Shown here one piece after another: positions 389-13,301 of a DNA stretch of 14,002 nt. The notes beneath the pieces are model-generated. The model saw only the letters and a program-made list of their open reading frames with translations, had not been told where the DNA came from and did no database searches. Position numbers and translations under genes: made by a program. How positions within the stretch are numbered: position 1 is the stretch's first letter; each line of letters starts with the position of its first letter. Location of the stretch: assembly GCA_027067015.1 (NCBI GenBank), contig JAMOMS010000097.1, positions 1 to 14,002 of the forward strand. Direction: 5' to 3'. The DNA comes from Campylobacterales bacterium. GTDB lineage: Bacteria; Campylobacterota; Campylobacteria; Campylobacterales; Hydrogenimonadaceae.

Positions 389-455
389 TCCTCTCAAAGC
401 CGCTTTTAAGTGTACGCAACCAATAATAGATGTAAATGAAAAGGGAGGTGTTCCC

Positions 456-2255
456 ATGGGGCGGTGGATTGCCGTTTTGGCTTTATGGGGATGGCTGTTG
501 ACGGGTGCGTGGGGCAAAATTTCTCCCAAAACCCCCAGCGACGTATTTGCCTATGCGACGCTTCTTAAAAAGGAGGTGGCGTATTTAAGGAAAAAGTCGG
601 GCATTCAAGAGCCTTTTCCAAGCGTTCGGGTTCAGCGCAACAAACAGCCCCGGCACGTGATTCAAAAAGCGCTGGAGATTCTGGCTAAAATCAACCGCTA
701 TCGCATCAACCACCATATGGGGGCTATTGTGATTCCGCCCTATCCGCCCAGGGAGATCAAACCCCAAGACGTTTACGATATAGTCAAGCGCCTTGACGGG
801 GAGGTGAGGCTTTTGATAGACGATCCCGCCTTTACTTCCGGGTTGCGTAAGCGTCGTTTTGTGAACAAAACCCCCAGTGACGTCTATGAACTGCTCTGGT
901 CGATCTCTTTGGGCTTTGACGCGTTGCTCGGCATTAAAGGGTATACGCCGACCGATGTCTATGCCCTGAGTGAAAAGGTTGTGCAAATTTCAAGGTTTTT
1001 GCGCCATTCGCAAAACCTTTACGATACGGTGCCCAAACCGCCGAAGCGAGAGGGGCTCTACCCCAATCACGCCCTGTACGCTTCCATAGCTTTTTTGAAA
1101 AAGGTGGCCAAAGAGCAGAAAAAGCTCTGGATCGAGCCGGCTGATATCCCCAAAATACCTCGGCGTGTCATTACGCCGACGGAGGTTTACGACTCACTGC
1201 AATACAACATCGCCGAACTCCAACGCATCAAGTATCGCCTGGGGATAGAGCGCTATTTTGAGATTCCGCTTCCCAAAGAGAAAAAGAGTCCCTCCGATGT
1301 GGTGCAAAACCTTCGATACGCCGCCATGCTCTTACCCGACTTCTCCTTTTCCAAACCGCTGGTGCAATATCCTTCCGAATCGTTGCGTAAAACGCCGAAT
1401 CAGGTCTATGCGGTCACGGTGGAGATTTTGCAAAAACTTGAGCGATTAAGAACCTTGCGGGGTATCCATCTTTTACCCGCCAATCCACCCAAAATTTACG
1501 GTCTTAAACCGATTCACTCCTATCAAAAAGGGATTGAGGCGATCGAAAAGGCCCAGCGTCTGCGGGTGCGTATGGGGTTTTATCCCTCCCAAATTCCCGC
1601 CATGCCTTTTCGGGCCATTACGCCCAGCGAGGTGTATGAGCTGATTTTGCGTCTTGACGGGATTGTGACGCTTTTGCTTAAAAAAGCGGGCCAAAGGGAT
1701 GTCAAAGCCTTTATCTACCGTACACGTCATCCCGTCTATAGCGACAAAACGCCTTCGGATGTCTATTTTAATCTTTGGAAGATCTCGCTATTGCTCGATC
1801 TGCTTTCGGGTAGCGAATATACCCCCAACGAAACCTACGCGTTGGCCATGAAAATCTACAAAAAGACGATACTGCTTGCCGACCATTTTCCGGGTGAAGA
1901 CGTGGCGTTCCAAAGGGAGCAGGGGGTGCGAAACAAGCGTCCCAAGGATGTTTTTGAGCTGGCCAAACGCCTTAACCGCTTACTGCGTCGGCTCCAAAAA
2001 CGGGCCAACATGAAGGTGACGGTTATAGAAATTCCCGAAGAGAAAAACATTACCCCCAATACCGTTTACAACGCTTTGCGCCTGATTAACGCGTCGCTTA
2101 ATGAGGTGCTGATTCATCTGGGCATCGACGCGGAAGAGATAGAGTTAAGCCAGATTCGCGTCAAAGAGAAGACCCCCAGCGATGTTTATGCTGTTGTCAG
2201 CGATACTTTGCGTGTTATTAATACCATGATGGATGATAGCCGATATGGGCAATAG
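456..2255 (+). CDS. Secreted/periplasmic protein of 16 TPxDVY repeats, function unknown
   Basis: This is a 599-aa protein. The start is ATG 456, because GGGAGGTG at 443-450 precedes it at good spacing and a signal peptide follows at once (hydrophobic residues ~4-17, probable cleavage near A18-W-G20). The open frame back to 366 has neither. The rest of the chain is about 16 repeats with consensus [K/I/Y]TPxDVYxxLxxIxxxLxxLlxxxGI. The motif prolines are at residues 27, 65, 103, 140, 165, 203, 241, 279, 314, 352, 390, 433, 457, 496, 534 and 574. The usual period is 38 residues, with one short 24-25-residue step at the same place in each half. Each unit should form amphipathic helices after a Pro-capped turn, giving a helical-repeat solenoid; this is inference. 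There is no transmembrane segment and no catalytic motif. Its end overlaps the start of the histidine kinase gene, suggesting a signalling partner. I do not recognise the family. Confidence 0.8.
   Translation: MGRWIAVLALWGWLLTGAWGKISPKTPSDVFAYATLLKKEVAYLRKKSGIQEPFPSVRVQRNKQPRHVIQKALEILAKINRYRINHHMGAIVIPPYPPREIKPQDVYDIVKRLDGEVRLLIDDPAFTSGLRKRRFVNKTPSDVYELLWSISLGFDALLGIKGYTPTDVYALSEKVVQISRFLRHSQNLYDTVPKPPKREGLYPNHALYASIAFLKKVAKEQKKLWIEPADIPKIPRRVITPTEVYDSLQYNIAELQRIKYRLGIERYFEIPLPKEKKSPSDVVQNLRYAAMLLPDFSFSKPLVQYPSESLRKTPNQVYAVTVEILQKLERLRTLRGIHLLPANPPKIYGLKPIHSYQKGIEAIEKAQRLRVRMGFYPSQIPAMPFRAITPSEVYELILRLDGIVTLLLKKAGQRDVKAFIYRTRHPVYSDKTPSDVYFNLWKISLLLDLLSGSEYTPNETYALAMKIYKKTILLADHFPGEDVAFQREQGVRNKRPKDVFELAKRLNRLLRRLQKRANMKVTVIEIPEEKNITPNTVYNALRLINASLNEVLIHLGIDAEEIELSQIRVKEKTPSDVYAVVSDTLRVINTMMDDSRYGQ
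528..1388 (+). repeat. First half (repeats 1-8) of the duplicated repeat block in the TPxDVY protein
   Basis: Eight units of about 38 residues with motif prolines at residues 27, 65, 103, 140, 165, 203, 241 and 279. Characteristic landmarks are RLDGEV in repeat 3, KTPSDVYELLW in repeat 4, YTPTDVYAL in repeat 5 after a short 25-residue step, ITPTEVYDSL in repeat 7 and KSPSDV in repeat 8. Each has a counterpart in the second half. Repeats are recognised at protein level; the DNA has diverged. Confidence 0.75.
1389..2252 (+). repeat. Second half (repeats 9-16), internal duplication of repeats 1-8
   Basis: Motif prolines at residues 314, 352, 390, 433, 457, 496, 534 and 574 lie 287 to 295 residues after those of repeats 1-8. 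The matching landmarks recur in order: RLDGIV in repeat 11, KTPSDVYFNLW in repeat 12, YTPNETYAL in repeat 13 after a short 24-residue step, ITPNTVYNAL in repeat 15 and KTPSDVY in repeat 16. This indicates duplication of an eight-unit block rather than independent single-repeat expansion. Confidence 0.75.
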
Positions 2256-4299
2256 CAAGCGTTTGATCAAAGGTGGTGTCGCCCTAAAATTCGCGCTGGT
2301 AACCATGGCGGTGGCTGTGGTGGGCGTGAGTTTGATGGCATGGCTTTCGTTTAAGGAGGCGAACCGGATTTTTCGTAAACACAGTGCCGTGACCCTGGCT
2401 TCCGAGACCAAATTATACGCCCAAAGTGTCTCCAAGCGGATTGGCGCGCTCAAATATGACCTGACCATGCTGGCCTTGAGCGATGCGCTAAAAGGGTTTG
2501 CCCGCGCGGTACACGATCCGGACGGATATGATGAGAAGACCAATAAAACGGCGGCGCAGTTTAAGCAGGAAGTGGCCGACCTTTTTAAGGTGATGGTAGA
2601 GCAAAACCGTCCCTATTTTAAAATACGGGTGGTTGATGCGCGAAACGGGCGTGAACTGGTGCGGGTTGATCGATTTATAAACGATACCATTGCGGTGGCG
2701 CCCGATTCCAGGCTTCAAGATAGTCTAGTACAAAGTGATCTACGCGCCTGCCTGAAACTTGCGCGCGGACAGATCTACCTTTCGGACATAACGCTAAACA
2801 GGCAAAATGGAGAGATCGAGATGCCTTATCGTCCCGCTTTGCGGGCGGGTCAACTCCTTTTTTGGCACGGTCAACCGGGTTTGATCGTTATGATTGACGC
2901 CGATGTGCGACGCTTGTTCGATTTTGAGCGTTTTGGAAAAGAGAAGGGTTTGCGTACCTATCTGGCCGATGAGCGGGGATACTATATTTACAATCCGGCC
3001 GATCCGCTTAAAGAGTTTGGCTTTGAGTTTGGCCGCCCATTCCGAATTTTTGACGACTTTCCCCTTCGTCCTCTTTATCAATCTAACAAAGCGCGGATTG
3101 CCTGGTATGACAAGTATGAAAAACGGCTCTTTGAGGCTTTGAAGATTGCCTTGGACGCGCACCGATTCGTGGTGGTTCTCAAGCAGTCTGACAGCGCGAT
3201 TTTGCAAGAGCAGTCGCGAGAGTATATTTTTAAACTTGCCCTTTACGCCGGCGTCATTGTCTTTTTGATGGCGCTAGTGGCGGCGTTGACGGCGTGGCGT
3301 ATGACGCGGCCCATTGTCAAGCTCAGTCGATACGCCAGACAAATCGCCCATTCGCAGGGACGGGATAAGATCGGTATTTCCATTCGTACCGGGGATGAGA
3401 TTGAGGAGCTTGCCCGATCGGTTGAGGCGATGCTGGACGCGTTATTAAAATCCCGTGCCGAGATAGAGCGGTTTGCCCAGAGGCTGGAGGGTGAGGTCCA
3501 GAAAAAGACCGAGGATTTACAGCGTCTTAACAAAGAGTTGGAGCAAAAGGTTCGTGAGGGCATTGAGGAGCTTCGCAAAAAAGAGGAGGCGTTGATGCAA
3601 AGCGCCAAGCTGGCGGATATGGGAGAGATGATCGGCGCCATCGCCCACCAGTGGCGCCAGCCTCTTAACGCCTTGGCGCTCAATATTCAGATGTTGGAGG
3701 ATATGGCCGCGGCGGGTGAGTTAAACGAAGAGGCGATCGAGAGTTTCGTGGAAAAGAATATGAAGACCATCCGCTTCATGTCCAAAACCATCGATGATTT
3801 CCGCAACTTCTACCGGGAAGAGAAGGAGCGCAAGCGCTTTAGCCTCAAGCAGGCGGTTGAGGACACGCTGGCACTGCAACAGGCCCAGCTTGAAGCCAGA
3901 AAGATTGTGTTGGAGCCGCATTTGTTAGAGGTTGAGGTAGAAGGGTTTAGAAACGACGTGATGCAGGTGGTGTTAAACCTTCTCTCCAACGCCAGAGACG
4001 CCGTAACGCAACGTCTGCAGACAGAGGAGGGCTTTAAAGGCAAGATCCGTGTCGAGACCCTGCGCGAAGGAGATGAGGCGGTCATTCGCGTTGCCGACAA
4101 CGGCGGCGGTGTGCCCGAAGAGATTGTCAACCGTATTTTTGAGCCTTACTTTACCACCAAGGAGGAGGGCAAAGGCACGGGATTGGGTTTGCATATGGCC
4201 CGGCGGATCATTGAGGAGAAGTTGGGCGGCAGACTGCTCTTTCAAAACGGCCCGGAAGGGGCGATATTCGAGATTCGTTTAAAGGCGGCAGATGCGTGA
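2233..4299 (+). CDS. Membrane sensor histidine kinase with periplasmic dCache-like domain and HAMP
   Basis: This 688-aa protein would autophosphorylate on histidine and pass phosphate to a response regulator, most likely the one encoded next. Domains in order: TM1 ~16-40; a ~290-residue periplasmic sensor region with dCache-like features (YFKIRVVD, GRELVRVDR, YLSDITLN); TM2 ~335-357; HAMP ~357-410 (RPIVKLSRYARQI, GDEIEELARSVEAML); a charged coiled coil ~405-458; the HisKA H-box IAHQWRQPLN with phospho-acceptor H472; and a HATPase domain with N-box N586, DNGGGVP (D622) and KGTGLGL (~648). All catalytic boxes look intact. ATG 2233 overlaps the upstream gene by 23 bases. ATG 2245 is an alternative start; neither has a strong ribosome binding site, which fits translational coupling. 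The H-box wording is common in Campylobacterota kinases. The ligand cannot be read from sequence. Confidence 0.92.
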   Translation: MIADMGNSKRLIKGGVALKFALVTMAVAVVGVSLMAWLSFKEANRIFRKHSAVTLASETKLYAQSVSKRIGALKYDLTMLALSDALKGFARAVHDPDGYDEKTNKTAAQFKQEVADLFKVMVEQNRPYFKIRVVDARNGRELVRVDRFINDTIAVAPDSRLQDSLVQSDLRACLKLARGQIYLSDITLNRQNGEIEMPYRPALRAGQLLFWHGQPGLIVMIDADVRRLFDFERFGKEKGLRTYLADERGYYIYNPADPLKEFGFEFGRPFRIFDDFPLRPLYQSNKARIAWYDKYEKRLFEALKIALDAHRFVVVLKQSDSAILQEQSREYIFKLALYAGVIVFLMALVAALTAWRMTRPIVKLSRYARQIAHSQGRDKIGISIRTGDEIEELARSVEAMLDALLKSRAEIERFAQRLEGEVQKKTEDLQRLNKELEQKVREGIEELRKKEEALMQSAKLADMGEMIGAIAHQWRQPLNALALNIQMLEDMAAAGELNEEAIESFVEKNMKTIRFMSKTIDDFRNFYREEKERKRFSLKQAVEDTLALQQAQLEARKIVLEPHLLEVEVEGFRNDVMQVVLNLLSNARDAVTQRLQTEEGFKGKIRVETLREGDEAVIRVADNGGGVPEEIVNRIFEPYFTTKEEGKGTGLGLHMARRIIEEKLGGRLLFQNGPEGAIFEIRLKAADA

Positions 4300-5545
4300 G
4301 AAACCGAGTGAGAGTCTCAAAGAGATTGTCCTTTTATATGTAGAGGATGATGATGAGGTGCGTGAGGCGTTGGGCAATATCTTGCGTCGATATGTTAACC
4401 GTTTACTGCTGGCCTCCAACGGGAAAGAGGGGTTGGCACTCTTTTTAACGGAGCAACCCCATATCGTCATTAGCGATATTCGTATGCCGGTGATGGACGG
4501 TTTAACCATGGCCGGGCATATCAAGGAGGTTAAAAAGGAGACGGCGATACTTTTTACCACCGCTTTTGGAGAGAGCGAGTATCTTAAACGGGCCATCGAG
4601 ATGGGAGTGGAGGGGTATTTGATCAAACCCATCGACCGTAACCGTTTGATCGCCAAGCTCAACTATTTGGCCGACGCGTTGGTAAACGAACGGCGCAAAC
4701 AGACCTATCTGCGCCTTTTGGCCTCTATCTTTGACGCCCAGAAAGAGGCGGTGGCTTTAATGACACGGCGCGGCGACATTCTGCTTTCCAATGTGGCTTA
4801 TAAACGTCTCTGTTTAAAGATCGGGTGCGAGGATGATGCGCATTTTGCTTCGATGGCCGGCAAGTTTTCTCTCAAAGCCGAGTGCGCAAAAGCGGATGGG
4901 GAAGATTTGATCAAGTGGTTGAAAAAGTCGGAAGGGGAGACGGTCTGCCTGGATATTAACGGGGTACGGCAATTTTATGAACTCCATACCAGGGATGTGG
5001 ATGACCTGCTCTTTTTGGAGATGATTGACGTGTCGCGTTATCGGCAAAATGAACTGCGCTTGGAGCATGAGAGTATGGCTGACGCCCTGACGGGGCTTTA
5101 TAACCGTAAGATTTTGCCAAAGATCGTGATGGAGGCCGCCCAGAAACCGAAAGTGTGTTGTTTGCTATGTGATTTGGACCATTTTAAAGAGGTCAACGAT
5201 CTCTATGGGCACGCCAGAGGCGATGCGGTTTTAAAGGAGGTGGCGGCGCTGATACGCTCAAAGTTGCGACAAAACGACTATCTGCTGAGGTGGGGCGGAG
5301 AGGAGTTTTTGGCGGTGCTGGATGGGGATATTCGCGAGGCGATGAGTGTGGCGCAAAAACTTCGCCGAGCCGTTGAGGAGACGCAGATCGCTCAATTACC
5401 GGCGGGTAAAGTGACCGTGAGTATAGGGATTTGTTGCGCCAAAATCAAAGATTTGCCCGAGTTTGAGACCCTTTTTGAAAGAACCGATCAGGCACTCTAT
5501 AAAGCCAAACATTTGGGACGCAACCGGGTAGAGGGGTGCGCGTGA
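4292..5545 (+). CDS. Response regulator diguanylate cyclase (REC - PAS-like - GGDEF)
   Basis: This 417-aa cytoplasmic protein probably makes c-di-GMP from two GTP when phosphorylated by the upstream kinase. REC domain ~10-125: acidic pocket E18/D19/D20, phospho-acceptor D62 in SDIRMP, T89/T90, and K112 in IKPID. The middle region ~140-250 resembles a PAS fold (EAVALMTRRGDILLSN, then a strand ending LLFLEMIDVS), but the family call is tentative. GGDEF domain ~260-417: LTGLYNRK, CDLDHFKEVND, and the active-site loop GGEEF at 335-339. The RxxD inhibitory site RQND (326-329) lies exactly five residues before it, so product feedback inhibition is expected. There is no EAL domain. The gene overlaps the kinase by 8 bases and runs into the DedA gene, so the three are probably translated from one message. 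Confidence 0.92.
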   Translation: MREKPSESLKEIVLLYVEDDDEVREALGNILRRYVNRLLLASNGKEGLALFLTEQPHIVISDIRMPVMDGLTMAGHIKEVKKETAILFTTAFGESEYLKRAIEMGVEGYLIKPIDRNRLIAKLNYLADALVNERRKQTYLRLLASIFDAQKEAVALMTRRGDILLSNVAYKRLCLKIGCEDDAHFASMAGKFSLKAECAKADGEDLIKWLKKSEGETVCLDINGVRQFYELHTRDVDDLLFLEMIDVSRYRQNELRLEHESMADALTGLYNRKILPKIVMEAAQKPKVCCLLCDLDHFKEVNDLYGHARGDAVLKEVAALIRSKLRQNDYLLRWGGEEFLAVLDGDIREAMSVAQKLRRAVEETQIAQLPAGKVTVSIGICCAKIKDLPEFETLFERTDQALYKAKHLGRNRVEGCA

Positions 5546-9168: not shown

Positions 9169-9762
9169 ATGAAAAAGGAATTGAAAAAAGAGGCCCGCCG
9201 GGGACAGATCATGGAAACGGCCCTTTCGCTTTTTGCCCAAAAGGGTTTTTACGCCACCACCATTCCCGATATCGCCAAAAAGATGGATATGAGCGTGGGC
9301 AACCTTTACAACTATTTTCCCTCCAAAGAGGCGCTGGCGCAGGAGATTATCCGCTACGTCTCCACGATGCTGGGAGAGACGATTCATGAGATCAACGAAT
9401 CGGCGTTGACGACAAAAGAGAAGATACGGCGTATTGTGCGCTTCTATTTTGGCCTATGTGAGGAGCGCCCCGAGTTGATCGAGTTTTTTTTGCGTGTCTA
9501 CCTGGCGAATCGGGAGGTCTTTCACGACGGGTGCGAGGGGATGATCTGCGTGGCCCCTTTTATGACCGAGATCATGGTCTTTTTCGAGGAGGGGGTGCGC
9601 GCGGGCGACTTGCGAAACCAGGACTTTTTCAGCGCGTTTGGGCTTTTTATGGGCTATCTTGGGGGTATGGCTTTTTTAAACGGGGAGCGGATTTTGCCCA
9701 AAAACCTTGAAAGCTACGCCGACGAGATCGCCGACAATATCTACGGGGCCCTCAAAGCGTAA
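9169..9762 (+). CDS. TetR/AcrR-family transcriptional regulator
   Basis: This 197-aa regulator has an N-terminal TetR DNA-binding domain: QIMETALSLFAQKGFYATTI followed by the helix-turn-helix at ~30-51 (IPDIAKKMDMSVGNLYNYF) and SKEAL. The C-terminal ~140 residues are a helical ligand or partner domain with no recognisable specificity. TetR proteins bind palindromes as dimers and usually repress. The stop overlaps the start of the hydrogenase small-subunit-like gene (TAATG), so the regulator is translated with that pair. A TetR-type palindrome occurs in front of hydA at 12039-12054; regulation of hydAB is my inference. No clear ribosome binding site precedes ATG 9169. The same palindrome is not seen upstream of this gene, so autoregulation by that motif is not supported. 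Confidence 0.9.
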   Translation: MKKELKKEARRGQIMETALSLFAQKGFYATTIPDIAKKMDMSVGNLYNYFPSKEALAQEIIRYVSTMLGETIHEINESALTTKEKIRRIVRFYFGLCEERPELIEFFLRVYLANREVFHDGCEGMICVAPFMTEIMVFFEEGVRAGDLRNQDFFSAFGLFMGYLGGMAFLNGERILPKNLESYADEIADNIYGALKA

Positions 9763-10649
9763 TGGCCCTCAAGCTTTTATGGTTGCAGGGGCTTAGTTGT
9801 AACGGCAACGCCCACTCCTTTTTCAACGTCCCGGATATGGCGGGCGTTTTGCGGGAGTTTGCCTTTATCTACCATCCTCTTCTACCTTGCGAGGCGACGC
9901 TGGAGGAGGTGAGCGGGGGGGATTTTTCGCCTGATGTCCTGATTGTGGAGGGGGCACTGCGCCGCGATGGGGTACCAAGGGGCGATGAAGAGGCGCTGAC
10001 GCTCATAACCCGCTACGCCAAGCAGGCCAAGTGGGTGGTGTGCGCGGGCCAGTGCGCCGTGTTTGGGGGGATTTTCCGCCTCAACGAGCCCGACAAGATC
10101 GCCGGCGCGCTCTACGCGGGGCAAGAAAGGGGCGGCTTTTTGGATGCCTTTGAGAAAAAAATTATCAACCTGCCCGGCTGTCCCGTCCATCCCGAATGGC
10201 TCCTTTTTACCCTGCGTATGCTGGCTTTGGGCACCGTGCCCCGGCTTGATGACCTGCGCCGGCCCGTGGAGCTGTACGGCTATACGGTGCACGAGGGGTG
10301 CTTGCGCAACGAATATTTTGAGTGGAAAGTGGATGCCAAAGACTTTGGCGCCAAAGAGGGGTGTCTGTTTTATGAGCAGGGGTGCCGGGGGCCCTATACC
10401 CGCGGCAGTTGCAACAAGATTTTGTGGAACGGCGTCAACTCCAAAACCCGCGCCGGTATGCCCTGCATCGGCTGTACCGAACCCGACTTTCCCGCCGAGC
10501 GGCTCTTTGAGACCGAAACGCTCATGTCCATTCCCGCCCGACTGCCGCTGGAGGTGCCCAAACGGGCCTATCTGACACTCACCGGCATGGCCAAGGCGTT
10601 TCGTATTCCCCGTCTAACACGGCGCAAATTCGGGGAGGAGGAGCCGTGA
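9762..10649 (+). CDS. Cytosolic [NiFe]-hydrogenase small-subunit-like protein (group 2 / HupU-HupS-like)
   Basis: A 295-aa iron-sulfur protein expected to carry three clusters and pair with the next gene product. It starts directly with LKLLWLQGLSCNGN and has no Tat signal or C-terminal anchor, so it is cytoplasmic. Proximal cluster ligands: C13, C98 (GQCAVFGG) and C140 (LPGCPVHP). The fourth usual Cys is N16, giving CxGN. Distal: H177, C180, C201, C208. Medial: C217, C235, C238 (PCIGCTEPDF). A 3-Cys/1-Asn proximal site of this form is known in cyanobacterial HupS (group 2a), whereas classic H2-sensing HupU/HoxB proteins carry CGGC. That favours a group 2a/2d-like enzyme over a textbook sensor, though a sensory role is not excluded. 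ATG 9762 overlaps the TetR stop by one base; the 3' end overlaps the large-subunit-like gene by four. Confidence 0.88.
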   Translation: MALKLLWLQGLSCNGNAHSFFNVPDMAGVLREFAFIYHPLLPCEATLEEVSGGDFSPDVLIVEGALRRDGVPRGDEEALTLITRYAKQAKWVVCAGQCAVFGGIFRLNEPDKIAGALYAGQERGGFLDAFEKKIINLPGCPVHPEWLLFTLRMLALGTVPRLDDLRRPVELYGYTVHEGCLRNEYFEWKVDAKDFGAKEGCLFYEQGCRGPYTRGSCNKILWNGVNSKTRAGMPCIGCTEPDFPAERLFETETLMSIPARLPLEVPKRAYLTLTGMAKAFRIPRLTRRKFGEEEP

Positions 10650-11947
10650 TACAAAGGTTGATCGAGCACGTGGAGGGGGAGGCCCTTTTACGGCTGGAAA
10701 AAGATGCGGACGGGCGTATCAAAAGGGCCGATATTCTCTTTCCCCATATCCGGGGGATGGAGAAGATTCTGCAAAGACGCGACGCGCTGGACGCGCTCGC
10801 CTTTACCCCCAGGGTTTGCGGGATCTGCGGTCACGCCCATTTGATGGCGACGGTGGCGGCGCTGGAGTCATGTTACGCGCAAGCCGGCGTGTCGCTTGAG
10901 ATTTCGGCCAAGGCGCGAACGCTCAGGCGTTTTACGCTGGCCATGGAGATGGTGCAAAATCACCTGAAGTGGTTTTATCTGACACTCCTGCCCGTTGTCA
11001 TGGGCCCGGCGTACAACAGGGACGTTTCCGTGCTTTCAGCCCATACGGCGGCGTCGGCCTGCGGGCGGGCCGTGGCGGTGATGGGCGGGCAGTGGCCCCA
11101 CACCTCCTACGCCCTGCCCGGCGGGGTGATGTGCGACCCCTCCCATGTGGAGCGTCTGCAGGCTTTGGCGGCGGTAGAGGAGGCCGGCGCGCTCTTTCAA
11201 AAGCGGATGGGACTCTCTGTTGACGCGATGGCCGAACTGGAAGACCCCGCGCTTTTGTGGCGAACGGAAGGGGACCTGGCGCTTTTGCTTCGCCGACTGG
11301 AGGCGCTTGAGCTGTTGGAAGCGGGACAGAGCTTTGACAGGTTTTTGGTGCTGGCCGATCACACGGCCGGCCCGGCGGGCAAATCGCTCAAGACGCGCCT
11401 GGCCGCCGTGGAGACGGCCTACGTAGAAGAAGATGAGCCGCTCCAAAGCGCCGGGTACGCCAACTTCGCCAAACCGGTGCGTTACCGGGGGCGCTTTTAC
11501 GAAGTGGGGCCCCTGGCCCGGGCCATGGTGGCCAAGGATCCGCTGGTACGCCGTCTGCATCGGCGCTACCGTGACGCCGTGAGTACCCGTATCATCGCCC
11601 GGGTCAAGGAGGCGGCCGTTTTGTTGTGCCGGTCGGCCCAGATGCTCAGGCAAATCGATCTTGGCGACCCCTCCTATATAAAGCCCCGCTACGCTTTGCG
11701 GGAGCTTGGTTCACTAAAAGGAGAGGGGGCGGTGGAGGCGGCCCGGGGGTCGCTTTTGCACAGGGTGCATCTAAGAAACGGGCGGATCGCGCGGTACTGC
11801 ATTATTACCCCGACCCAGTGGAATCTGGCTTCTGCGACGGATGAGCCGGGTGTGGCCGCCACGGCCATGGTGGGGTTGAAAGATGAGAAGGCCGCCGAGG
11901 TGGTCTTTAAAGCCTTTGATGTCTGTTCTGTTTGTACCACCCAGTAA
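10646..11947 (+). CDS. Cytosolic [NiFe]-hydrogenase large-subunit-like protein without C-terminal maturation tail (HupV/HupL-like)
   Basis: This 433-aa protein should carry the NiFe(CN)2CO site. It starts at GTG 10646 after GGGGAGGAGGA, overlapping the small-subunit-like gene. The N-terminal HVEGEALLRLE replaces the usual RIEGHLRIE. The L1 motif RVCGICGHAH supplies C58 and C61 with H65; LPGGV is also present. The C-terminal motif reads DVCSVCTTQ, with C427 and C430, and the chain stops three residues after C430. The usual Pro of DPCxxC is Val and the usual final His is Gln, and there is no tail for the maturation endopeptidase to remove. Lack of the tail is known for sensory HupV/HoxC and some group 2 relatives. 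All four Ni-binding Cys are present. It is shorter than periplasmic large subunits. Role, H2 sensing or cytosolic H2 oxidation, is unresolved. Confidence 0.88.
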   Translation: MIQRLIEHVEGEALLRLEKDADGRIKRADILFPHIRGMEKILQRRDALDALAFTPRVCGICGHAHLMATVAALESCYAQAGVSLEISAKARTLRRFTLAMEMVQNHLKWFYLTLLPVVMGPAYNRDVSVLSAHTAASACGRAVAVMGGQWPHTSYALPGGVMCDPSHVERLQALAAVEEAGALFQKRMGLSVDAMAELEDPALLWRTEGDLALLLRRLEALELLEAGQSFDRFLVLADHTAGPAGKSLKTRLAAVETAYVEEDEPLQSAGYANFAKPVRYRGRFYEVGPLARAMVAKDPLVRRLHRRYRDAVSTRIIARVKEAAVLLCRSAQMLRQIDLGDPSYIKPRYALRELGSLKGEGAVEAARGSLLHRVHLRNGRIARYCIITPTQWNLASATDEPGVAATAMVGLKDEKAAEVVFKAFDVCSVCTTQ

Positions 11948-12065: not shown

Positions 12066-13301
12066 ATGACGGATAGACAGGACGCGGTGCGCACACTCTT
12101 TACCACCAAGAGCGCGCGTGTCGACACGAACCGGGGTGACGCCTATTACCGGGATCTTTTTGCCCGGTGCAAGGCGCGGCTGGAGGAGCTCAAACGCATG
12201 GAGCCGCTGGGTAACGGCGTGGAGCTGAGCGAAGTACTCAGCGACGAGGGGTATGATCGGCGTGATTTTATGAAGTGGGTGAGCGCCACGACGGCGATGC
12301 TGATGCTTCCCAGCTTCTTCGAGCCGCTGGTGGCCGAGGCGGCCGAGGTGATGAACCGGGTGCCGGTGATCTGGCTGGAGCTCCAGGATTGCGCGGGCAA
12401 TACCGAGGCACTGCTTAGAAGCGACGGGCCCAAGATTGACGAGATCATTCTTGACATTATCAGCCTGGAATTCAATGAGACCATCATGGCCGCCGCGGGT
12501 CACCAGGCCGAGGCGCAACTGGAAGACGCCATGCGTACTTTCAAAAACAAATATCTTCTCTTTGTCGAAGGGGCCGTACCCACCGGCGTGGGCAAAGAGT
12601 GGTGTACCATCGGCGCTTCGGGCGAGACCTTTGAAGAACACCTGCTCAAAGTGGCCAAAGACGCGGCGGCCATCGTGGCGGTAGGCACCTGCGCGACGTT
12701 CGGCGGCGTGCCGGCGGCGGCCCCCAACCCCACGGGCGCGACGGGGGTGATGGATCTGATTAAAGGCAAGCCCATCATCAACATTCCCGCCTGTCCCGCC
12801 AACCCCGCCAACATGGTGGGCGTGATTTTGCACTACGTGTTGACCGGCCAGATTCCCGAGCTTGACGCACTGTTAAGGCCCAAATTCGCCTTCGGCTACC
12901 GCATTCACGACAACTGCGAGCGTCGGGCCCACTTTGACGCGGGCGAGTTTGTCGAAGAGTGGGGCGATGAAGGGGCGCAAAACAACTTCTGCCTCTACAA
13001 AATGGGGTGTAAAGGCCCGATGACCTTCAACAACTGCTCCATCATCCGCTATAACGAGAGCGTCAACTGGCCCGTGGGCGTAGGACACGGCTGTATCGGC
13101 TGTAGCGAGCCTGATTTTTGGGACAAATACGCCTATGAGCGCCCCATGGCCGATGCCCACATCAAAGCCCCCACGGGCGGCGTGGAGAAGACGGTGGACG
13201 AATTTGGTTTGGGCGTGTTGACGGCAACCGCCGTGGGTATCGGTATTCACGCGGCGGCCAGCGCTGTGGCGGGCAAGAAATCTGACGAGGGAGAAGCGTA
13301 A
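12066..13301 (+). CDS. hydA: Tat-exported [NiFe]-hydrogenase small subunit, membrane-anchored
   Basis: This 411-aa small subunit passes electrons from the NiFe site through three Fe-S clusters to a membrane cytochrome b. ATG 12066 is set by GGAGGT five bases upstream. A 64-residue N-region precedes the twin-arginine motif R65-R66 (RRDFMKW), then a hydrophobic core and an A-x-A-like site near VAEAAE. Proximal cluster: C109, C209 (GTCATFGG), C243 (PACPANP); the usual second Cys is N112 (DCAGN). Distal: H281, C284, C309, C315. Medial: C324, C343, C346 (GCIGCSEPDFWD). A C-terminal helix ~383-401 (LTATAVGIGIHAAASAV) anchors it on the periplasmic face. The layout is that of a group 1 respiratory uptake enzyme. 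The stop overlaps the large-subunit start (TAATG). A promoter and a TetR-type palindrome lie directly upstream. Confidence 0.95.
   Translation: MTDRQDAVRTLFTTKSARVDTNRGDAYYRDLFARCKARLEELKRMEPLGNGVELSEVLSDEGYDRRDFMKWVSATTAMLMLPSFFEPLVAEAAEVMNRVPVIWLELQDCAGNTEALLRSDGPKIDEIILDIISLEFNETIMAAAGHQAEAQLEDAMRTFKNKYLLFVEGAVPTGVGKEWCTIGASGETFEEHLLKVAKDAAAIVAVGTCATFGGVPAAAPNPTGATGVMDLIKGKPIINIPACPANPANMVGVILHYVLTGQIPELDALLRPKFAFGYRIHDNCERRAHFDAGEFVEEWGDEGAQNNFCLYKMGCKGPMTFNNCSIIRYNESVNWPVGVGHGCIGCSEPDFWDKYAYERPMADAHIKAPTGGVEKTVDEFGLGVLTATAVGIGIHAAASAVAGKKSDEGEA

Follow-up and report, generated by a model that had tools for sequence, protein, structure and literature searches.

A gene at positions 456 to 2255 of a Campylobacterales contig encodes REP16 (P0001), a protein of 16 tandem [K/I]TPxDVY-type repeats that belongs to a real, undescribed repeat family and is probably an exported, all-helical periplasmic co-sensor, not of the solute-binding protein (SBP) type, acting on the sensor domain of the kinase encoded downstream. 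The following features lie in the window, by which we mean the whole stretch of 14,002 nucleotides that was analyzed.

441 to 450, plus strand: Shine-Dalgarno-like aagggaggtg ahead of the REP16 ATG, seen in the sequence
456 to 2255, plus strand: REP16 gene (16-repeat protein, P0001), 599 aa, with its start ATG at 456
456 to 515, plus strand: putative Sec signal peptide, REP16 residues 1 to 20, from the hydrophobic N terminus as judged by eye and a helix at residues 2 to 17 in the model
516 to 1370, plus strand: N-terminal half of REP16, repeats 1 to 8, from self-comparison and motif positions
648 to 710, plus strand: helix of repeat 2, residues 65 to 85 in the AlphaFold2 model, containing R66 and K78
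873 to 950, plus strand: first short step, 25 residues from repeat 4 to repeat 5, from motif positions
1371 to 2252, plus strand: C-terminal half of REP16, repeats 9 to 16, from self-comparison, motif positions, and the tree
1752 to 1826, plus strand: second short step, 24 residues from repeat 12 to repeat 13, from motif positions
2233 to 4299, plus strand: open reading frame of the partner histidine kinase, as listed, with a 23-base overlap with the end of REP16
2290 to 3264, plus strand: kinase sensor region ("type A") that served as the query; kinase residues 105 to 264 match PF21623 (HK_sensor_dom_bact)
4292 to 5545, plus strand: response regulator with a GGDEF (diguanylate cyclase) domain, overlapping the kinase gene and, by its domain matches, the likely output

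The 16 repeats proposed in a sequence-only reading of this gene are borne out by the positions of the motif prolines, which fall at residues 27, 65, 103, 140, 165, 203, 241, and 279 in the N-terminal half and at residues 314, 352, 390, 433, 457, 496, 534, and 574 in the C-terminal half. Repeats 2, 6, and 10 depart furthest from TPxDVY (PRHVI, PNHAL, and PIHSY). Successive prolines are separated by 38, 38, 37, 25, 38, 38, and 38 residues in the first half and by 38, 38, 43, 24, 39, 38, and 40 residues in the second, and the short step said to recur at a matching place does so (25 residues between repeats 4 and 5 and 24 residues between repeats 12 and 13). The proposed period of 38 describes most of the longer steps, 10 of 13 of which are 37 to 39 residues, but steps of 35, 40, and 43 residues each occur once. 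Offsets between each repeat and the eighth one following it are 287, 287, 287, 293, 292, 293, 293, and 295 residues, exactly the range that had been given for the lag of the second-half prolines behind those of the first.

The description of REP16 as two duplicated eight-repeat halves is upheld by their alignment to each other (BLASTP, 96.7 bits, E = 5e-28, 31% identity over 268 columns), and the tree presented below is compatible with it. The top ungapped self-diagonals of the protein lie at offsets of 149 (score, 132), 287 (123), 138 (90), and 293 (76). The anticipated offset of about 290 residues is thus present, with the diagonals at 287 and 293 exceeding the highest score, 44, among 100 shuffles of REP16. 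In an alignment of 100 rows (REP16 and 99 homologues), none of 5,000 permutations of repeat order reached the observed similarity between repeats eight positions apart, including when the motif columns were removed.

In the AlphaFold2 model of REP16 (pLDDT, 94.7; pTM, 0.92), a hydrophobic N-terminal helix spans residues 2 to 17, and every one of the 16 motif prolines starts a single helix of 14 to 22 residues, in agreement with the helical character originally assigned to the repeats. Each of these helices is followed mostly by about 17 residues lacking regular secondary structure. Both this model and that of an eight-repeat protein consist of helices only, and neither has a strand that reaches 3 residues.

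The initial impression that the repeat matches no described family has survived searches of Pfam, NCBIfam, PHROGs, and PDB sequences, none of which placed REP16, and Foldseek returned zero PDB matches to the model at an E value of ≤0.001. At an E value of ≤1, the only Pfam matches to P0001 are DUF7395, HTH_11, and Sigma70_r3, all below cut-off. No SBP family appears among these matches or among those of 17 full-length and 18 H2 members (one of the eight-repeat groups described below) at an E value of ≤0.01. Membership of the SBP superfamily is not supported, there being no SBP Pfam match and no alpha/beta lobes in the models. PexRD54_WY (PF22748) has no match in P0001 at an E value of ≤1; at ≤0.01, it matches 4 of the 17 full-length homologues (best, 5.4e-6) and 2 of the 18 H2 proteins (best, 0.003), and it is a precomputed annotation on P0077, P0079, and P0114. 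REP16 resembles TPR, HEAT, and other helical-hairpin solenoids in having tandem helical repeats of similar length (35 to 40 residues), but those proteins contain a helical hairpin per repeat, whereas REP16 has one helix and then mostly about 17 residues lacking regular secondary structure, and no Pfam repeat family reaches its cut-off in P0001. A TPR-like solenoid is likewise not supported because each repeat supplies a single helix, not two antiparallel ones.

Searches with REP16 recovered at least 274 proteins, and searches with eight-repeat profiles recovered at least 158 and at least 453, these totals being lower bounds because each search scored at most 8,000 candidates. Among the matches listed (120 of the at least 274), REP16 relatives are 517 to 621 aa in length, and some carry the names of Hydrogenimonas, Caminibacter, Sulfurimonas, and Persephonella. 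Just 12 of the 397 Campylobacterota genomes drawn contained anything that matched the 16-repeat profile, and the 16-repeat gene is therefore rare. The eight-repeat relatives, free-standing proteins of about 300 aa found in many phyla, form two groups. H1 occurs in Campylobacterota and in records named Gammaproteobacteria, Magnetococcales, and Mariprofundaceae; H2, sampled at 47 loci collected with two peptide patterns, occurs in Gammaproteobacteria, Planctomycetota, Verrucomicrobia, Nitrospirota, Deltaproteobacteria, and others. Profile comparison links H1 to H2 (E = 7e-32) and the 16-repeat proteins to H2 (E = 5e-23). With repeat positions placed by eye in one reference protein per group, the steps are 38, 39, 38, 24, 38, 39, and 39 residues in H1 and 38, 38, 38, 24, 39, 40, and 38 residues in H2, a spacing much like that of either half of REP16.

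In a 74-row tree rooted at its midpoint, the N halves, the C halves, H1, and H2 each occupy their own branch, and the N and C halves together are split from H1 and H2 (99/90). Given this topology, a single duplication of an eight-repeat ancestor, prior to the diversification of the 16-repeat proteins, appears well supported by the sequences. Columns that are at least 95% identical number 69 in the N half versus 42 in the C half. In conservation counts that left out the H2 rows P0294 and P0265, K78 (K365 in the C half) is present in 94 to 100% of rows in all four groups. R66 is present in 91 to 97% of rows in the N half, H1, and H2, and E254 is common to the free-standing relatives and the N half; both are replaced in most C halves. 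Of the two rows left out, P0294 is a 518-aa open frame that encodes a receiver domain and, continuing in the same frame, a signal-like stretch and then an eight-repeat domain, and P0265, in a record named after a dinoflagellate, joins an eight-repeat protein and then a QWW sensor (see below) in a single chain, possibly as a mis-joined bacterial contaminant.

Gene context was read at 12 sixteen-repeat loci (from the at least 274 proteins found), and at 11 of these the gene directly downstream encodes a type-A-sensor kinase. The 11 comprise the window, 9 of the 10 other Campylobacterota loci, and one planctomycete, whose partner was identified as a kinase solely by its H-box sequence. The suggested check, whether a histidine kinase gene invariably adjoins the homologues, therefore comes out positive for the 16-repeat form at 11 of 12 loci but not at G027, which has kept both genes on different contigs. 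The gap between the repeat gene and its neighbor is often very short or overlapping (−4, −11, and −16). A match to receiver and GGDEF domains follows the kinase at 6 of the 9 other paired Campylobacterota loci; one of these is split, the response regulator/GGDEF gene behind the kinase at L078:9926-11168 consisting of two open frames.

The type-A sensor and REP16 also occur together across genomes. Among 100 genomes, that of the window included, full-length sensor matches (E ≤ 6.5e-35) are found in exactly the 9 that contain REP16 (Fisher test, 5e-13, without correction for kinship), and weaker matches, mostly to part of the domain, raise the genome total to 24 of 100. The window kinase and the two H1 partners that were scanned match PF21623, and the sensor of the window kinase has a weak sequence match to the dCache structures 2p7j and 3lid (E = 1e-4). 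REP16-paired sensors align over nearly all 325 residues of the query, whereas the weaker relatives in the 100 genomes, including two H1 partners, match in part, mostly from about residue 65 to 100 onward. Distances among REP16 proteins and among sensors are correlated (r = 0.905; 55 pairs from 11 loci), which may reflect common descent alone. REP16 was more conserved than the sensor in 10 of 10 comparisons with the window.

Elsewhere in the window, two NiFe-hydrogenase sets lie side by side (9762 to 11947 and 12066 to 13301). The first contains a small subunit without a TAT match and a 433-aa large subunit, and a TAT-type small subunit follows. The matches of the first-set subunits to NCBIfam hydrogenase families are far below the cut-offs yet above those of Pfam, and this pair may represent a hydrogenase that is divergent or has a sensory role.

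For the eight-repeat form, the neighbor is a membrane signal transducer at 7 of 8 H1 loci and at least 28 of 47 H2 loci, and its output is often, but not always, a kinase. At the 7 H1 loci, all in Campylobacterota, the repeat gene precedes that of a type-A-sensor protein (E ≤ 1e-30); L085 is without such a neighbor. Pfam scans of two H1 partners identified a hybrid kinase at the end of one and SpoIIE at the end of the other. At 28 of the 47 H2 loci, the repeat gene adjoins the gene for a QWW sensor, and at L074 the beginning of a QWW domain lies at the contig end. QWW, a 312-position helical sensor named for its QWWxEDVAxTPGN stretch, is unrelated to type A by profile comparison; the C-terminal part of its profile resembles the four-helix sensors of MCPs and LytS (E about 1e-4), and part of the profile matches the LytS sensor chains 5xsj and 5xsd (E = 2e-4).

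Outputs linked to QWW include kinase, MCP, GGDEF/EAL, SpoIIE, cyclase, and Ser/Thr-kinase. A domain scan of 28 of the 43 first downstream genes of H2, namely those that are long and on the same strand, detected HAMP (19), HATPase (17), HisKA (15), GGDEF (2), EAL (2), MCP (1), SpoIIE (1), and nucleotide cyclase (1) domains; 4 of the 28 genes (at L048, L066, L068, and L072) are without QWW, and one of the two EAL matches is that at L072. Because the sensor type stays the same while the outputs vary, the repeat protein tracks the input domain more closely than it tracks the output. At L032:3318-6005, a planctomycete Ser/Thr protein kinase with a C-terminal QWW domain lies directly before the eight-repeat gene.

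A QWW neighbor is missing at 18 of the 47 H2 loci, counting L074 as having one, and no QWW domain was found anywhere in 15 of those 18 genomes. For L031, L071, and L072, QWW lies elsewhere in the genome or beyond the contig end, and the L031 contig ends too near the H2 gene for its neighbor to be judged. A four-helix MCP gene is upstream of H2 at L066, and an EAL gene is downstream at L072. Four non-QWW loci from Nitrospirota and Nitrospinota (L050, L054, L059, and L060) have another neighbor in common, without a Pfam family. This conserved gene of about 180 to 230 aa, its product apparently secreted in L054, lies upstream of the eight-repeat gene. Some H2 proteins must act otherwise or use further partners.

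Sensors of both types also occur without a repeat protein. Among 236 Planctomycetota genomes, 8 have near-full QWW matches and 3 have H2 genes; all 3 H2 genes are in adjacent QWW pairs, a count that includes G458, the sample center, which was picked for holding a pair. No H2 was detectable in 5 of the 8 genomes with near-full QWW matches. Type-A-like sensors are present in 20 of the 236 genomes, in just one case beside a 16-repeat gene; no REP was detectable in the remaining 19, and none adjoins the sensor at the 8 of those loci that were inspected. Since the sensors are also found alone, the repeat protein looks like an add-on to certain receptors. At L167:251-1042, the gene ahead of a planctomycete QWW receptor encodes not a repeat protein but one of 263 aa that looks exported and contains a CxxCH heme-type motif.

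If REP16 is a co-sensor, it would be exported to the periplasm, as its N terminus suggests, and would dock on the periplasmic type-A sensor. There it would meet a stimulus of its own, a small molecule or an envelope component, and change the activity of the kinase, the step of which we are least sure. The kinase, judging from the domains encoded, would then phosphorylate the response regulator/GGDEF protein and alter cyclic-di-GMP. Counting toward this reading are the genome co-occurrence of REP16 and type A, their gene pairing, the short gaps, the constancy of the sensor type where outputs vary, and the correlated distances of REP16 and sensor, as well as the retention of R66 and E254 in the N half and their frequent replacement in the C half. 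Counting against it are the unpaired genes at G027 and L085, the H2 loci and genomes without QWW, and the sensors that occur alone. Stronger conservation of REP16 than of the sensor is expected if REP16 carries signal specificity, and this difference in conservation inclines us toward a ligand as the stimulus.

A less likely explanation, though one with some weight, is that REP spans or touches the outer membrane or peptidoglycan and relays the state of the envelope, with no small molecule, in the manner of QseG and QseE. A solved precedent, in which the accessory protein is helical and straddles a four-helix sensor, is given in excerpts of PMC12691602, and the resemblance of the QWW profile to the four-helix sensors of MCPs and LytS fits this explanation. 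REP16, however, has zero cysteines in its 599 residues and therefore cannot be a lipoprotein like QseG, and its Pfam and NCBIfam matches include no peptidoglycan-binding family. In CpxP-like logic, a periplasmic inhibitor of a kinase is released under stress; REP could be such an inhibitor, or a chaperone of the kinase, and not an activator, but we consider this improbable. The anatomy is similar, in that the gene for a helical and apparently exported protein adjoins that of a sensor kinase, yet no such family is among the Pfam matches of P0001.

It also seems improbable that REP and the sensor have no physical link, in which case REP would have a structural, adhesive, or ligand-storing role in the periplasm and would simply be co-expressed or co-transferred with the sensor. 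The H2 loci and genomes without QWW and the different common neighbor of the four Nitrospirota and Nitrospinota loci favor such an explanation, and adjacency can mislead: excerpts of PMC11113362 report neighboring SBP and kinase genes without detectable interaction. Weighing against it, the pairing stays with the sensor domain from one phylum to another even as the outputs differ, and the 16-repeat gene and the sensor are present or absent together in the 100 genomes.

The preferred reading of REP16 as a co-sensor has parallels among known systems. SBP-dependent sensor kinases include TorT-TorS, LuxP-LuxQ, and XylFII-LytS, and their SBPs are two-lobed alpha/beta proteins. REP is likewise putatively exported and encoded beside a membrane sensor that it may engage, and LytS sensor chains resemble part of the QWW profile, but REP is predicted to be all-helical, and P0001 matches no Pfam family above cut-off. 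The SBP-kinase pairs treated in excerpts of PMC11113362 provide a precedent for accessory proteins. According to excerpts of PMC12691602, QseG is a helical outer-membrane lipoprotein that dimerizes and acts on the periplasmic sensor of QseE, a kinase from the same gene cluster. The two systems are alike in drawing a helical accessory protein and a kinase from one gene cluster; however, QseG is a lipoprotein and a dimer whereas REP16 is a cysteine-free 16-helix repeat protein, and the QseE sensor is a four-helix bundle whereas that of the window kinase resembles a Cache domain.

The REP family is most likely a new family that works by a mechanism of a known kind, and the frequent location of its relatives, in many bacterial phyla, beside many kinds of sensors suggests an uncharacterized class of helpers that feed signals into sensors. 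More tentatively, and with some doubt on our part, REP may represent a class of periplasmic co-receptors that is shared across phyla, has a new fold built from single-helix repeats (8 of them, doubled to 16 by one duplication), and serves two unrelated sensor types and at least six kinds of output, in which case REP plus sensor would be a portable input module parallel to SBP systems. Many membrane sensors have, to our knowledge, no known signal. The pairing of REP with sensors would give a handle on the signals to which these receptors respond in bacteria of vents and the sea, and REP would extend the accessory proteins that drive sensor kinases by a class that is not of the SBP type.
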